From Rhodothermus marinus (lineage in GTDB: Bacteria > Bacteroidota > Rhodothermia > Rhodothermales > Rhodothermaceae): a stretch of 64,000 nt of DNA. Positions within the stretch are counted from its first letter, which is position 1; each line of letters opens with the position of its first letter. Positions 2,739-8,335 of the stretch are shown here, one piece after another. Under the pieces are notes generated by a model. The model did not search any database. It was not told the origin of the DNA and saw nothing but the letters and a program-made list of their open reading frames with translations. Position numbers and translations under genes: made by a program. The stretch lies in assembly GCF_009936275.1 (NCBI RefSeq), contig NZ_AP019797.1, forward strand, positions 2,959,890 through 3,023,889. Direction: 5' to 3'.

Positions 2739-3668
2739 ATGCTTGTTGTCGATCAGGTCACGAAACGCTACGGGTCCACCGTGGCGGTTGACCGGGCTTC
2801 GTTCACCGCCGCACCCGGCCGCATTCTGGGCCTGCTGGGACCGAACGGCGCCGGCAAAACGACCACGATCCGGATGATCGCCGCCATTCTGCTGCCCGAC
2901 GAAGGGCGCATTCTTTTCGACGGGCGGCCCGTCGGTCCCTGGAGCCAGGCGCTCATGGGCTACCTGCCCGAAGAACGCGGCCTCTACCGCAAGCTCAGGG
3001 TGGAAGAGCAGCTCGTGTACTTCGGCCGCCTGAAGGGTCTTTCGCTGATGGAAGCCTGCCGCCGGGCCCGCGCCTGGCTGGAGCGGTTCGATCTGGCCCG
3101 CTGGCGCCATCACAAGACCGAGGCGCTCTCGAAGGGCATGCAGCAGAAGCTGCAGTTCATTGCGGCCGTCCAGCACCAGCCCCGCCTGCTCATTCTGGAC
3201 GAGCCGTTCAGCGGGCTGGACCCGATCAATGCGGAACTGCTCAAAGACATCGTGCTGGAGCTGAAAGAGGCCGGCCGCATCATCCTGTTCGCCTCGCACC
3301 ACATGGAGCAGGTCGAGCAGCTCTGCGACGACATCTGCCTGATTGCCCGGGGCCGCATTCTGCTTGCCGGCTCGCTGCGCGAGGTCAAGCAGCGCTTCGG
3401 CCGCAACACCGTCGTCATGGAATTCGACGGCGACGGCGCGTTTCTCGACGCGCTGGCCCGGGAAGGCGCCATTCGGCTGATCAACCGGACGAACCATCGC
3501 GTCGAGCTGGCCCTCTGCAACGGCACGCCGCCCCGCCGGGTCCTGGAAGCCGCCCTGTCTCATGTGCGCGAGCTGTACCGCTTCGAGGTGAGCGAGCCGC
3601 CACTGACCGAGATCTTCAAGCAGGTTGTCGGTTCACCATCCGCTTCGGCTACGTCGTCCCATGGATAA
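2739..3668 (+). CDS. ABC transporter ATP-binding protein, NatA-like
   Basis: A 309-residue ABC ATPase. It has Walker A GPNGAGKTT (34-42), signature LSKGMQQ (130-136, the variant typical of NatA/CcmA-type exporters), Walker B LLILDEP (150-156) and the D-loop SGLDP, then a switch His in FASHHMEQVEQLCDD. The roughly 75-residue C-terminal extension after the ATPase core is usual for NatA/DrrA-like proteins (domain DUF4162). The start ATG at 2739 is chosen because LVVDQVTKRYG begins the standard first strand; the frame is open further upstream but that part is not protein-like. The stop overlaps the permease start by 8 bases (ATGGATAA), so the two are translationally coupled. Substrate unknown; Na+ or drug export is the family theme. 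Confidence 0.92.
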   Translation: MLVVDQVTKRYGSTVAVDRASFTAAPGRILGLLGPNGAGKTTTIRMIAAILLPDEGRILFDGRPVGPWSQALMGYLPEERGLYRKLRVEEQLVYFGRLKGLSLMEACRRARAWLERFDLARWRHHKTEALSKGMQQKLQFIAAVQHQPRLLILDEPFSGLDPINAELLKDIVLELKEAGRIILFASHHMEQVEQLCDDICLIARGRILLAGSLREVKQRFGRNTVVMEFDGDGAFLDALAREGAIRLINRTNHRVELALCNGTPPRRVLEAALSHVRELYRFEVSEPPLTEIFKQVVGSPSASATSSHG

Positions 3669-4950
3669 GATCTGGATCGTTCTGCAGAGCGAATTTCTTC
3701 GGCGCGTGCGCACGCGCGCGTTTCTGCTGACCACGCTGCTGGCGCCGATCCTTCTGCTGGCCATAGCGCTGCTACCCGCCCTGATCGGCTATCTGGGCAG
3801 TCGCGACGCCTCGCGTCATCTGGCCGTGGTCGATTCCACCGGCATGTTGCTGCCGCGCATGCAGGAGCGCGCCCCGGCCACGCTGCACCTGGAAGCCGTG
3901 ACGCTGCCGCTCGACTCGCTGCAGGCGGCCGTTCTGCAGGGACGCTACGACGGGTACCTGATCCTGCCGGCCGCCCTGGTCGAAGGCGACGTCGCGGCCG
4001 AACTCTACGTCGAGAAAAGCCTCGGGCTGAGCTTTCAGAGCCAGGTCGAGCGTCTGATCAACCGGGCCGTGCGGGACGTCCGGCTCGAGCGCCTGCAGGT
4101 GCCGCCCGAACTGGTGGCCGCCCTCCGCGCCGAGGTTCCGCTGCGCCAGTACCGCCTGTCGGAGACCGGCACCGAAGCCGACGGCACCGTGTTTTTCTCC
4201 ATCATCGGCTACCTGATGGGCTTCATCATCTACGGCGCCACGCTGGCCTACGGGAGCCTGGTCATGCAGGGGGTCATCGAAGAAAAATCCAGCCGCGTGA
4301 TCGAGCTGATCGTCTCCTCGGTCCGGCCGTTTCAACTCCTGATGGGCAAGGTGCTGGGCATCGGCGCGATGGGCCTTGTGCAGTTCGTGCTCTGGGGCTT
4401 GCTGCTGGTGGCCGGCACCATGGCGGCCGGCCCCATCATCGCCCATTTTCTCGATCCCCAGCAGCTCAACCTGCCGGCCAACGCCTCCACCCAGGAGCTG
4501 CTGCAGGCGGCCAACATCACGCTGCCGCCCATCGATCCCCTGCTGATCGTCTGGTTCGTGCTGTTCTTCCTGGGCGGCTACCTGATGTACTCCAGCCTGT
4601 TTGCGGCCGTTGGCTCGGCCGTCGAGCAGCAGCAGGACGCCCAGAGCCTCATGCTGCCGCTCATGCTGCTGATCGTGATTCCCATTCTGTTCATTACCTA
4701 CGTCATCGAAAACCCCGGCGCCCCGCTGTCGGTCGGGCTGTCGCTGTTCCCGTTCTTTTCGCCGATCCTGATGATCGTGCGCATTGCCATCGGCAGTGCG
4801 GCGCTGTGGGAGGCCGTGCTGGCCTACCTGCTGCTGGTGGCGGGTTTTCTGGGGGCCATCTGGATCAGCGCCCGCATTTACCGCATCGGCATTCTGTCCT
4901 ACGGCCAGAAGCCCTCGCTGCGCGAGCTGCTGCGGTGGATCCGGGCCTGA
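3661..4950 (+). CDS. ABC-2 type permease, NatB-like
   Basis: A 429-residue inner-membrane protein, partner of the ATPase at 2739-3668. Topology is the NatB/YhaP pattern: one helix near the N-terminus (about 17-40, LLTTLLAPILLLAIALLPAL), a periplasmic loop of about 140 residues, then a block of five or so helices from about 180 to 420. The conserved EEKSSRVIELIVSSVRPFQLLMGKVLG loop, typical of ABC-2 exporters of the NatB class, lies between the second and third helices. The start ATG at 3661 overlaps the preceding stop. It probably exports Na+, a toxic compound or a lipid; the sequence does not say which. Confidence 0.9.
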   Translation: MDKIWIVLQSEFLRRVRTRAFLLTTLLAPILLLAIALLPALIGYLGSRDASRHLAVVDSTGMLLPRMQERAPATLHLEAVTLPLDSLQAAVLQGRYDGYLILPAALVEGDVAAELYVEKSLGLSFQSQVERLINRAVRDVRLERLQVPPELVAALRAEVPLRQYRLSETGTEADGTVFFSIIGYLMGFIIYGATLAYGSLVMQGVIEEKSSRVIELIVSSVRPFQLLMGKVLGIGAMGLVQFVLWGLLLVAGTMAAGPIIAHFLDPQQLNLPANASTQELLQAANITLPPIDPLLIVWFVLFFLGGYLMYSSLFAAVGSAVEQQQDAQSLMLPLMLLIVIPILFITYVIENPGAPLSVGLSLFPFFSPILMIVRIAIGSAALWEAVLAYLLLVAGFLGAIWISARIYRIGILSYGQKPSLRELLRWIRA

Positions 4951-5024: not shown

Positions 5025-8000
5025 ATGCGGCTCGGATGTCTTGTGGGGTTGCTGCTGTTTGCTTCGGCCATGCCGGCCGCACAGGCGCAGTACTTCCGCT
5101 TCGGCAAAAACAAAGTCCACTACCGGACGCCCACCTGGTACTACATCCAGTCGCAACACTTCGACATCTACTACTACGAAGGCGGCTACGAGCTGGCCAG
5201 CTTCACGGCCGAAGCCGCCGAAGCCGCCTATCAGGAGCTGGTCGAGCTGTTTCAGTATGAGCTTTCCGGCCGCATTCCCATTCTGGTCTATCAGAGCCAT
5301 CACGATTTCACCGTCACGAACGCGGTCGATCTGCCGGATTACAGCGAGGGCATCGGAGGCGTCACGGAACTGTACAAGAACCGGATCGCCGTGCCCTTCA
5401 TGGGCGACTACCGGGACTACCGCCGGGTGGTTCACCACGAGCTGGTCCATGCCGTACTGAACGACATGTTCTACGGCGGCTCGCTGCAATCCATTCTCCA
5501 GAACAACCTGCAACTGGTGCTGCCGCTCTGGTTCAACGAGGGGCTGGCCGAATACGCCGCGCTGGGCTGGGACACGAACTCCGACATGTACGTGCGCGAG
5601 GCGATCCTGAACGATCACCTCGATTCGATCCCCTACCTGTCGGGCTACTTCGCCTACCGGGGCGGCCAGAGCGTCTGGGACTACATCGCCGAGCAGTACG
5701 GCCGCGAAAAGATCGCCGAGATCCTCCAGCGCGTGCGTCTGACGCACTCGGTGGAGGCCGGCATCCGACAGGCGACGGGCCTCTCGCTGCGCGAACTCTC
5801 GGAGCGCTGGCACAAGGCGCTGCGCGAGATCTACTATCCGGAACTGACCGCCCGCGAGCAGCTCGACGACATCGGCCGACCGCTGCTCACGGCCCGCAAC
5901 GCGGGCTACTACAACACGAGTCCGGCCCTCTCGCCTCAGGGCGACCGCATCGCCTTCATCACGACGCGCAACGGCCTGTTCGACGTGTACCTGGCCAGCG
6001 CCAACGACGGCAAGATCCTGCGCCGGCTGGTGGCGGGCCAGACCAGCCCCGACTTCGAGAGCCTGCGCATCCTGACGCCCGGCCTGACCTGGAGCCCGGA
6101 CGGCCGCTTTCTGGCGCTGGCCGTCAAGAGCGGTCCCACCGACGCCATCGCGGTGATCAACGTCGAGACCGGCGCGCACGTGCGCTACCGCATCCCGGGC
6201 GTCGAGCAGATCCTGTCGCTGGCCTGGAGTCCGGACGGCCGCCGGATCGCCTTCGCCGGAACGCAACGGGCTCAGAGCGACATCTACGTGCTGGACCTGC
6301 AGACCGGCGCGACGATCAACTACACGAACGACGTCTTCAGTGACCACGAACCCGCCTGGCGGCCTGACGGCCGGGCGCTCGTGTTTCACAGCGACCGGGG
6401 GCCCTACGTCGAGCCCGGACGCTACCAGGCCGGTCAGTTCGACCTGACCGCACGGATCTCGCGCGGCTACGACCTCTACCTGCTGCATCTCGATCCAGTG
6501 CGCATCGAACGACTGACCACCACCGAACCCTGGGACGACCGGAGCGGACGCTTCGGCAACGACTCGGATCGGCTGCTGTTCATCTCGGACCGCAACGGCA
6601 TTCCCAACCTGTACGAAAAAGACCTGCGCACCGGAGCCGAGCGGCCGTTGACCGACGTGGTCATGGGCATCCAGCAGGTCTCGCTCTCAGCCGACGGCCA
6701 CAAAGCGGCCGTGGTCAGCCTGCGCGACGGCGTTCCTTCGATCTACCTCATCAAGAACCCCTTTGAGCGCCGTCTGGAGACCGACACGCTGGCGCCCACC
6801 GTCTGGGCCCAGCGGCGTTTGCGCCAGCCATCTCAGCCGGCTCCGGCGCTGGCGCTGGCCTCCGAAGCGCTACGCCAGCGCAACCCCTTCCTGCGCGATG
6901 CCAGCCACACGACGCCGCCGTCCGGCCTCCTGCTGGCCGCCTCCGAACCCGCCGGCAGCAACGGCACCAACGGCCACGGCGAGGCGCCCGACTCCACGCA
7001 TTACGGCACGCTCCGCGTGGACTTCCGCAACTACGTGTTCAGCTCGGCCTTCGACGAGGCGCGTCCGCCCCGGGCCACACCTTCCTACTACAATGCGGAT
7101 CCCTTCGCACCGAAAGACAACGTGGACGAAAGCGGCCGCTACCGTCCCCGGCGGTACCGCCTCTACTTCACGCCCGATCTGGTCTATGGCGCTGCCGGCT
7201 ACGACATGCTCTATGGCGTGCAGAGCGTCACCCAGATGATGTTCAGCGACATGCTGGGCAACCACCGCATCTGGGCCGCCACAAACCTGCTCGTGGACCT
7301 GCGCAACTCCGACTACCTCATCGCCTACAGCTACCTGCCGCGCCGTACCGACTGGACGGTGGCCGTCTACCACGTGGCCCGGCTGCTTCCGGACTACGCG
7401 CTGCGCACGCTCTACCGCTACCGGCACTACGGGTTGAACCTCAGCGCCAGCTACCCGCTCAACAAATTCGAGCGCTTCGACCTCGGCCTGGCCTACATGG
7501 GCGTCAACCAGACCGACATCGGCAACCTGGCGCGGCCCCCGGTCACGCGCACGCTCTTCTATCCGTCCCTCACCTACACGCGCGACGTGAGCGTGCCGGG
7601 ACTGCTGGCACCCATCGGCGGCCATCGGCTGGCCCTGCAGCTCTCCGGAAGCCCCGGCAACCTGCTCTACGGCCGCCAGATCCGCTTCGTGACGCTGCTG
7701 GCCGACGCGCGCACCTACACTTCGTTCGGCCGCGGACTCTACAGTTTCGCCTTCCGACTGGCCGGCGGCGCTTCGTTCGGACCGAATCCCCAGCTCTTCT
7801 ACTCGGCCGGGGTGGAAAACTGGATCAACCGTCGCTTCGACAGCTTCCCGATCGAAGACCTGACCGACTTCGTCTTTGCCACGCCAGTCCTTCCGCTGCG
7901 CGCCACCGACATCAACACGCTCAAAGGCCCCTACTTCGGCCTGTTCAATGCCGAATTCCGCTTCCCGCTGGTCGCCGCTCTGCTGCCGGGTCCGCTTCCC

Positions 8001-8261
8001 ATCCTCCCGCTTTACAACCTGCAGGGCACGGCCTTCCTGGACGCGGGGGCCGTGTGGGGAAGCCCCTCGAACCGCCGCCTGAACCTCTTCCGGCGCGACG
8101 AACACGGCCGCCAGGTGCTCGACGACCTGCGCGTGGCCGGTGGCCTGGGGCTGCGCACCATCCTCCTCGGCTTTCCGTTCCGCTTCGACTTCGCCTGGCC
8201 CTTCGACGGCCGCCGCTTCCTCCACCGACGGTTCTATTTCTCGGTAGGTCTTGATTTTTGA
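5025..8261 (+). CDS. Envelope protein: HExxH protease-like domain, WD40-like propeller, outer-membrane barrel
   Basis: A 1078-residue protein. Residues 1-21 are a signal peptide (VGLLLFASAMPAAQAQ). Residues about 25-280 resemble a peptidase-MA-like gluzincin domain: HHELVH with HELVH at 138-142, followed by WFNEGLAEYAA, which supplies the third zinc ligand in this family. About 285-600 has repeated PD40/TolB-type propeller blades (LTWSPDGRFLAL, LAWSPDGRRIAF, PAWRPDGRALVF, LFISDRNGIPNLYE). About 690-1078 is rich in alternating aromatic strands and ends FYFSVGLDF, with FLDAGAVWG, as in Omp85/surface-antigen barrels. The start at 5025 is chosen for the signal peptide. It would be anchored in the outer membrane with the soluble domains on one side. 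Related proteins occur in Bacteroidetes but their substrates are not known. It follows the ABC exporter by 74 bases. Confidence 0.85.
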   Translation: MRLGCLVGLLLFASAMPAAQAQYFRFGKNKVHYRTPTWYYIQSQHFDIYYYEGGYELASFTAEAAEAAYQELVELFQYELSGRIPILVYQSHHDFTVTNAVDLPDYSEGIGGVTELYKNRIAVPFMGDYRDYRRVVHHELVHAVLNDMFYGGSLQSILQNNLQLVLPLWFNEGLAEYAALGWDTNSDMYVREAILNDHLDSIPYLSGYFAYRGGQSVWDYIAEQYGREKIAEILQRVRLTHSVEAGIRQATGLSLRELSERWHKALREIYYPELTAREQLDDIGRPLLTARNAGYYNTSPALSPQGDRIAFITTRNGLFDVYLASANDGKILRRLVAGQTSPDFESLRILTPGLTWSPDGRFLALAVKSGPTDAIAVINVETGAHVRYRIPGVEQILSLAWSPDGRRIAFAGTQRAQSDIYVLDLQTGATINYTNDVFSDHEPAWRPDGRALVFHSDRGPYVEPGRYQAGQFDLTARISRGYDLYLLHLDPVRIERLTTTEPWDDRSGRFGNDSDRLLFISDRNGIPNLYEKDLRTGAERPLTDVVMGIQQVSLSADGHKAAVVSLRDGVPSIYLIKNPFERRLETDTLAPTVWAQRRLRQPSQPAPALALASEALRQRNPFLRDASHTTPPSGLLLAASEPAGSNGTNGHGEAPDSTHYGTLRVDFRNYVFSSAFDEARPPRATPSYYNADPFAPKDNVDESGRYRPRRYRLYFTPDLVYGAAGYDMLYGVQSVTQMMFSDMLGNHRIWAATNLLVDLRNSDYLIAYSYLPRRTDWTVAVYHVARLLPDYALRTLYRYRHYGLNLSASYPLNKFERFDLGLAYMGVNQTDIGNLARPPVTRTLFYPSLTYTRDVSVPGLLAPIGGHRLALQLSGSPGNLLYGRQIRFVTLLADARTYTSFGRGLYSFAFRLAGGASFGPNPQLFYSAGVENWINRRFDSFPIEDLTDFVFATPVLPLRATDINTLKGPYFGLFNAEFRFPLVAALLPGPLPILPLYNLQGTAFLDAGAVWGSPSNRRLNLFRRDEHGRQVLDDLRVAGGLGLRTILLGFPFRFDFAWPFDGRRFLHRRFYFSVGLDF

Positions 8262-8280: not shown

Positions 8281-8335
8281 CCCCCGATTTAAAGGGGGCT
8301 GCAAGCGGCCGACCGGAACGGTCGGCGGTTTTTTT
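8281..8335 (+). terminator. Rho-independent terminator after the envelope protein gene
   Basis: A perfect 7-bp stem GCCGACC/GGTCGGC (8308-8314 with 8320-8326) and 5-base loop is followed by CGG and seven Ts (8329-8335). A second GC hairpin, CCCCC...GGGGG (8281-8298), lies just before it. Together they separate the gene ending at 8261 from tig. Confidence 0.8.

Follow-up and report, generated by a model that had tools for sequence, protein, structure and literature searches.

The Rhodothermus marinus window analysed here, a stretch of 64,000 nucleotides, contains a gene (5025-8261, + strand) that raises the question of what a chain joining a metalloprotease-like domain, a propeller and an outer-membrane barrel does in the cell envelope, on which side of the membrane its enzyme acts and with which partner. 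The policing and building of the outer membrane are poorly known in diderms outside Proteobacteria. Translation of the open reading frame gave a single stop-free chain of 1078 amino acids, here called P1, and its start is shared with two relatives (L012 and L019). The N-terminus, MRLGCLVGLLLFASAMPAAQA followed by QYF, fits a signal-peptidase-I signal, and inspection of the sequence revealed no lipobox Cys at this end. The translation and the N-terminus agreed with the initial annotation, which had described one 1078-residue chain with a signal peptide. A fusion created by a frameshift or by misassembly was ruled out by the existence of single-frame, full-length relatives of 95-26% identity in many genomes. 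The features of the gene are the following:

5025..5087, + strand: signal peptide, P1 residues 1-21, predicted cleavage between AQA and Q; pLDDT below 50 over residues 1-24
5088..5876, + strand: gluzincin-type zinc metallopeptidase domain, residues 22-284 (Peptidase_MA_2, domain model, Foldseek matches to M9 and M1 peptidases)
5436..5450, + strand: HELVH, zinc ligands and catalytic Glu, residues 138-142; H138, E139 and H142 identical in 82/82
5535..5552, + strand: NEGLAE, residues 171-176, with E172 as third zinc ligand; E172 and G173 identical in 82/82
5877..6758, + strand: six-bladed TolB/PD40-type propeller, residues 285-578 (PD40, TIGR02800, Foldseek)
6759..7169, + strand: linker, residues 579-715, disordered at 631-690 by pLDDT, with no POTRA
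7170..8258, + strand: Omp85 16-strand barrel, residues 716-1078, C-terminal Phe (Pfam, model, Foldseek)
7896..7907, + strand: Omp85 loop-6 motif, LRAT, residues 958-961; (L/V/I)RG(Y/F/H/W/T) in relatives
8308..8335, + strand: strong intrinsic terminator, 8-bp stem and T-run, dividing the P1 gene from tig

Three Pfam families matched P1 in the order Peptidase_MA_2 (residues 83-266, 6.3e-12), PD40 (1.3e-21) and Omp85 (PF01103, residues 797-1078, 8e-10), every one above its curated cut-off. The AlphaFold model of the full chain, which had 40 aligned sequences as input, reached a mean pLDDT of 84 and a pTM of 0.84; the signal (1-24), part of the linker (631-690) and residues 985-993 were of low confidence and the rest was confident. 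The model consists of a helical protease at residues 38-276, a propeller at about 285-577, with six blades as read from the strand list, and a barrel of 16 strands, all within residues 716-1074. Foldseek matched the propeller to TolB (3.7e-13) and the barrel to that of BamA (target TM about 0.6). Pfam, model and Foldseek together bore out the claimed fusion of metalloprotease, PD40/TolB-like blades and an Omp85-type barrel ending in Phe, and the full-chain prediction that had been proposed as a check placed a barrel at the C-terminus. P1 scored against the TIGR02800 TolB model (4.1e-36, 124.8 bits) below the equivalog cut-off of 343, and no Tol-Pal genes were recognised beside it in the neighbourhood inspected; TolB proper was ruled out by the score, the barrel and the protease. 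At least one POTRA domain is expected before the barrel of Omp85 proteins of the BamA, TamA, TamL or PlpD type, and assignment to these types was rejected after zero POTRA matches were obtained among the 40 family members scanned. Membership of the Omp85 superfamily is unaffected; the 16-strand C-terminal barrel and the loop-6 (V/I/L)RG(F/Y) motif are both present. By its domain matches and its model, P1 is an exported chain in which a gluzincin protease is followed by a propeller of TolB type with six blades and then by an Omp85 barrel of 16 strands, without POTRA domains.

A related arrangement was described by Heinz and Lithgow, who in 2014 defined the WD40-Omp85 subfamily by a TolB-like propeller and no POTRA and suggested a BamA-BamB-like role for it; P1 likewise has a TolB-like propeller ahead of its Omp85 barrel (PMC4104836). 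Neither a peptidase domain nor TamB linkage is mentioned in its text for WD40-Omp85 proteins, and the 'Metallo' group defined there is PF00149, the calcineurin-like phosphoesterase family. The 2014 survey was the sole match in the literature searched, where no experimental work on the protease-propeller-Omp85 architecture was found. The propeller-barrel part is already known, but neither its union with a conserved zinc protease nor the linkage to TamB discussed below appears to have been reported in that literature.

The residues H138, E139, H142 and E172 of P1 are identical in all 82 aligned relatives, which come from several phyla, and the same is true of Y211 and G214. In the AlphaFold model, HELVH lies on helix 129-150 and NEGLAE on the next one, 168-180, an arrangement that corresponds to the gluzincin pattern (clan MA), where HExxH on one helix is joined by a Glu ligand on another helix downstream. 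Because the four residues are identical in 82/82 relatives, HELVH and E172 are not a chance occurrence, and a degenerate or dead protease was ruled out on the same grounds. The zinc motif and the third-ligand helix reported earlier were thus upheld, and E172 supplies the ligand whose lack had been named as possible counter-evidence. When modelled alone, the protease domain had a pLDDT of 86, and its Foldseek matches were M9 collagenases and M1 aminopeptidases, with a best E of 5e-4 and a TMq of about 0.5-0.6; its profile matched microbial collagenases weakly at the sequence level (E about 0.01). The HExxH helix, the downstream Glu ligand and a similar fold are shared with these gluzincins, but P1 is 10-18% identical to them and has an outer-membrane setting. 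At the other end of the chain, the loop-6 residue R959 was found in 82/82 sequences and G960 in 79/82, with Ala solely in the three Rhodothermus sequences. The invariance of the active-site residues and of the loop-6 Arg across phyla is what one would expect if the enzyme works and the barrel is a genuine Omp85 barrel. Just past the signal peptide, Q22, G27 and N29 are conserved in the 82-member alignment, G27 and N29 being kept in 81/82 relatives. This part of the mature N-terminus (5088-5123, QYFxFGKNxVxY) is among the top conserved stretches of the protein, yet it is outside the Pfam protease model.

These conservation data bear on the role suggested in 2014 for WD40-Omp85 proteins, according to which P1 would be a fusion of BamA/BamB type for the insertion of outer-membrane proteins and its protease would be secondary. 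Although the Omp85 barrel with its invariant loop-6 Arg, and a propeller as in BamB (PMC4104836), would suit such a role, the protease is the most conserved part of P1 (mean conservation 0.59 vs 0.50 and 0.48 for the other parts in the 82-member alignment) and the propeller is of the PD40/TolB type by both sequence and fold. The absence of POTRA from the 40 members also argues against it, as does the presence of POTRA-bearing Omp85 proteins in the same genomes; every genome sampled has several additional Omp85 proteins. We consider this explanation unlikely.

The initial annotation had the protease held by its own barrel either at the cell surface or inside the periplasm. The tether was supported, and the periplasm is favoured over the surface because the enzyme is N-terminal to the Omp85 barrel and because the enzyme domain of PlpD stays in the periplasm. 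PlpD, a patatin-Omp85 protein, was once thought to display its enzyme and was then shown to keep the enzyme domain periplasmic (PMC11116518). Like P1, it consists of an N-terminal hydrolase and a C-terminal Omp85 barrel, but it has a patatin lipase and POTRA where P1 has a zinc protease and a propeller. By this analogy, the barrel of P1 is likely located in the outer membrane and its N-terminal domains in the periplasm. An autotransporter-like display, where the Omp85 barrel would move the protease outside to produce a surface-anchored secreted protease, could be argued from the presence of a protease and an exported barrel on the same chain, the M9 collagenase-like fold and the early proposal for patatin-Omp85 (type Vd). 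However, the very model for the type Vd proposal, PlpD, keeps its enzyme in the periplasm (PMC11116518), and the folded propeller and protease, about 560 residues, would need passage through a narrow barrel. Display at the surface is improbable.

The P1 family is widespread and ancient. Matches were found in 193 of the 296 genomes of the phylum and in 121 of its 139 sampled genera, and among the matches listed the family members are almost always full-length with one open frame. Other relatives belong to Gemmatimonadota, Acidobacteriota, KSB1, Calditrichota and further groups. With a family that spans several phyla the architecture is not unique; an Omp85 barrel with a built-in protease and this distribution represents a large unstudied piece of outer-membrane machinery. 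The Rhodothermus marinus genome has three P1 paralogs with the same four zinc/catalytic residues:

C1:742783: paralog L002
C1:2199289: paralog L003
C1:145966: paralog L004

Pfam matched PD40, Peptidase_MA_2 and Omp85 in L003; PD40 was the sole Pfam match in L002 and L004, but both have the loop-6 motif in the alignment. In the protein tree (82 sequences), obtained by a quick search with no bootstrap and from non-random sampling, a single clade of 60 rows (SH-aLRT 100) holds the ABC-linked and the TamB-linked genes together with others of Bacteroidota type, and the P1 orthologs of Rhodothermales and Balneolia fall together (98). In the same tree L004 is a long branch, L002 clusters with Acidobacteriota/Gemmatimonadota and L003 with KSB1/Calditrichota, a placement that suggests old duplications or transfer.

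Two genes of an exporter, which by synteny are neighbours of P1 in Rhodothermales only, precede P1:

2742..3668, + strand: ABC exporter ATPase (ABC_tran 4.6e-28, DrrA1-3_C 2.3e-12)
3661..4950, + strand: ABC-2 exporter permease (ABC2_membrane_3 2.2e-48)

The gene order in Rhodothermales is yebC-ruvC-small ORF-ABC ATPase-ABC permease-P1-tig-clpP, with additional sequence inserted upstream of P1 at some loci, and outside Rhodothermales the ABC pair is gone. The gap of 74 bases between exporter and P1 given in the initial annotation is exact; the link itself holds within Rhodothermales only, and an ABC-exporter partnership as a general rule was ruled out. The small ORF upstream of the ABC pair (2221-2664), conserved in Rhodothermales, has the core LLPVVPxYHRRARxKKxLxxGxLVYYGP and no Pfam match.

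In Balneolia and Ignavibacteria the P1 ortholog is the last of three closely spaced genes on the same strand, tamB-RNase R-P1. This cluster occurs at 21 loci, a count taken from the best-scoring hits listed that is not an unbiased frequency; 18 of them fall among the 40 genome stretches taken (11 families). PF04357 was above its cut-off in several of the cluster tamB genes, and the others were identified by clear homology to those. The outer flanks vary, with aroK-aroB in Balneolia and rfaE-type genes in part of Ignavibacteria (names read from the sequences, not from a database), and therefore the three genes form a conserved unit. The cluster is absent from Rhodothermales, Kapabacteria-like and several other lineages. 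In the Rhodothermus genome, a TamB gene (TamB2) adjoins RNase R at C1:1457573-1464428, unlinked from P1. In the TamB tree, this TamB2 and the TamBs of the Balneolia cluster are sisters (100/100), and the TamB beside a POTRA-bearing Omp85 falls apart from them (100/100). Balneolia and Rhodothermus also carry such a POTRA-Omp85-linked TamB, and on this ground the P1-linked TamB was rejected as their ordinary one. Since the TamB link is present on both sides of the 60-row clade, it is most simply read as ancestral and lost in Rhodothermales, with which the TamB2-RNase R pair of Rhodothermus agrees. Judged from gene order, TamB and RNase R are the older and wider candidate partner of P1 compared with the ABC exporter, and the clustering of P1 with the gene of TamB, a protein that spans from one membrane to the other, gives a hint that P1 may serve quality control or construction of the outer membrane.

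The partners of TamB elsewhere are the operon-encoded Omp85 proteins TamA, TamL or BamA (PMC4494059), and in Flavobacterium TamL is purified together with TamB and the outer membrane requires TamL for its integrity (PMC12045153). P1 may be comparable to them, as an Omp85 protein whose gene lies with that of a TamB-type bridge in the Balneolia and Ignavibacteria clusters; it differs in its protease and propeller in place of POTRA, in the RNase R gene in between, in not being a lipoprotein and in that its TamB partnership is putative. We hypothesize, with a probability of roughly one half, that P1 is an outer-membrane-anchored, periplasm-facing zinc endopeptidase acting with a dedicated TamB2 bridge, a TAM-like unit with built-in proteolysis. 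The protease and the propeller are likely located under the barrel, in place of POTRA domains; the propeller would recruit or position a substrate or partner, the protease would cut or clear periplasmic or outer-membrane clients, and P1 would be the outer-membrane Omp85 partner of TamB2, the second and dedicated TamB-type bridge. In Rhodothermus, where the two genes are unlinked, the partnership would occur in trans. A tentative extension, to which we give somewhat less than an even chance, is that the two proteins form a translocation and assembly module of a second kind: TamB2 would dock on an Omp85 barrel in which a TolB-like propeller and a zinc protease have taken the place of the POTRA domains, so that membrane bridging is joined to on-site proteolysis.

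Cooperation with TamB2 is weakened because the gene of a cytoplasmic enzyme, RNase R, is interposed, and something else may account for the conservation of the cluster; because the linkage is missing in Rhodothermales, Kapabacteria-like and other lineages; and because, without POTRA, the known docking site of TamB is missing from P1. The several other Omp85 proteins in each genome sampled and the Ala that replaces the loop-6 Gly in Rhodothermus also speak against our preferred explanation. P1 could instead be a stand-alone periplasmic protease for outer-membrane quality control with a BepA/DegP-like role, its barrel serving as anchor and sensor, without a functional TamB link and with tamB-rnr as a conserved housekeeping neighbourhood. 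BepA is a soluble M48 protease with a TPR domain and, unlike P1, is not known to have a barrel or a propeller. Its likeness to P1 is that of a zinc metallopeptidase in the periplasm, where BepA acts on the assembly of outer-membrane barrels (PMC8423444). The complete active site in 82/82 sequences, the interposed RNase R, the paralogs with full active sites within one genome, and the lack of the cluster in Rhodothermales and Kapabacteria, where P1 is found behind ABC-exporter or fatty-acid genes, are all compatible with a stand-alone protease. In contrast, the tamB-rnr-P1 order is retained although the genes on either side of it differ, and it is TamB2 that has no POTRA-Omp85 as a neighbour. 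We regard the stand-alone role as possible but less probable than the TamB2 partnership. The TamB2 partnership, if true, would provide a concrete second TAM and a case of an enzyme replacing POTRA domains.

Two other observations were made around the P1 orthologs. At three Kapabacteria-like loci (L028, L082 and L085) the ortholog comes right after a fatty-acid/phospholipid run that reads as plsX-fabH-fabD-fabG-fabF-rnc. In several Balneolia (L025, L055-L057, L059 and L061) the next gene downstream, which is convergent, is homologous to a type 9 secretion plug protein, with PF17116 matched in L025.
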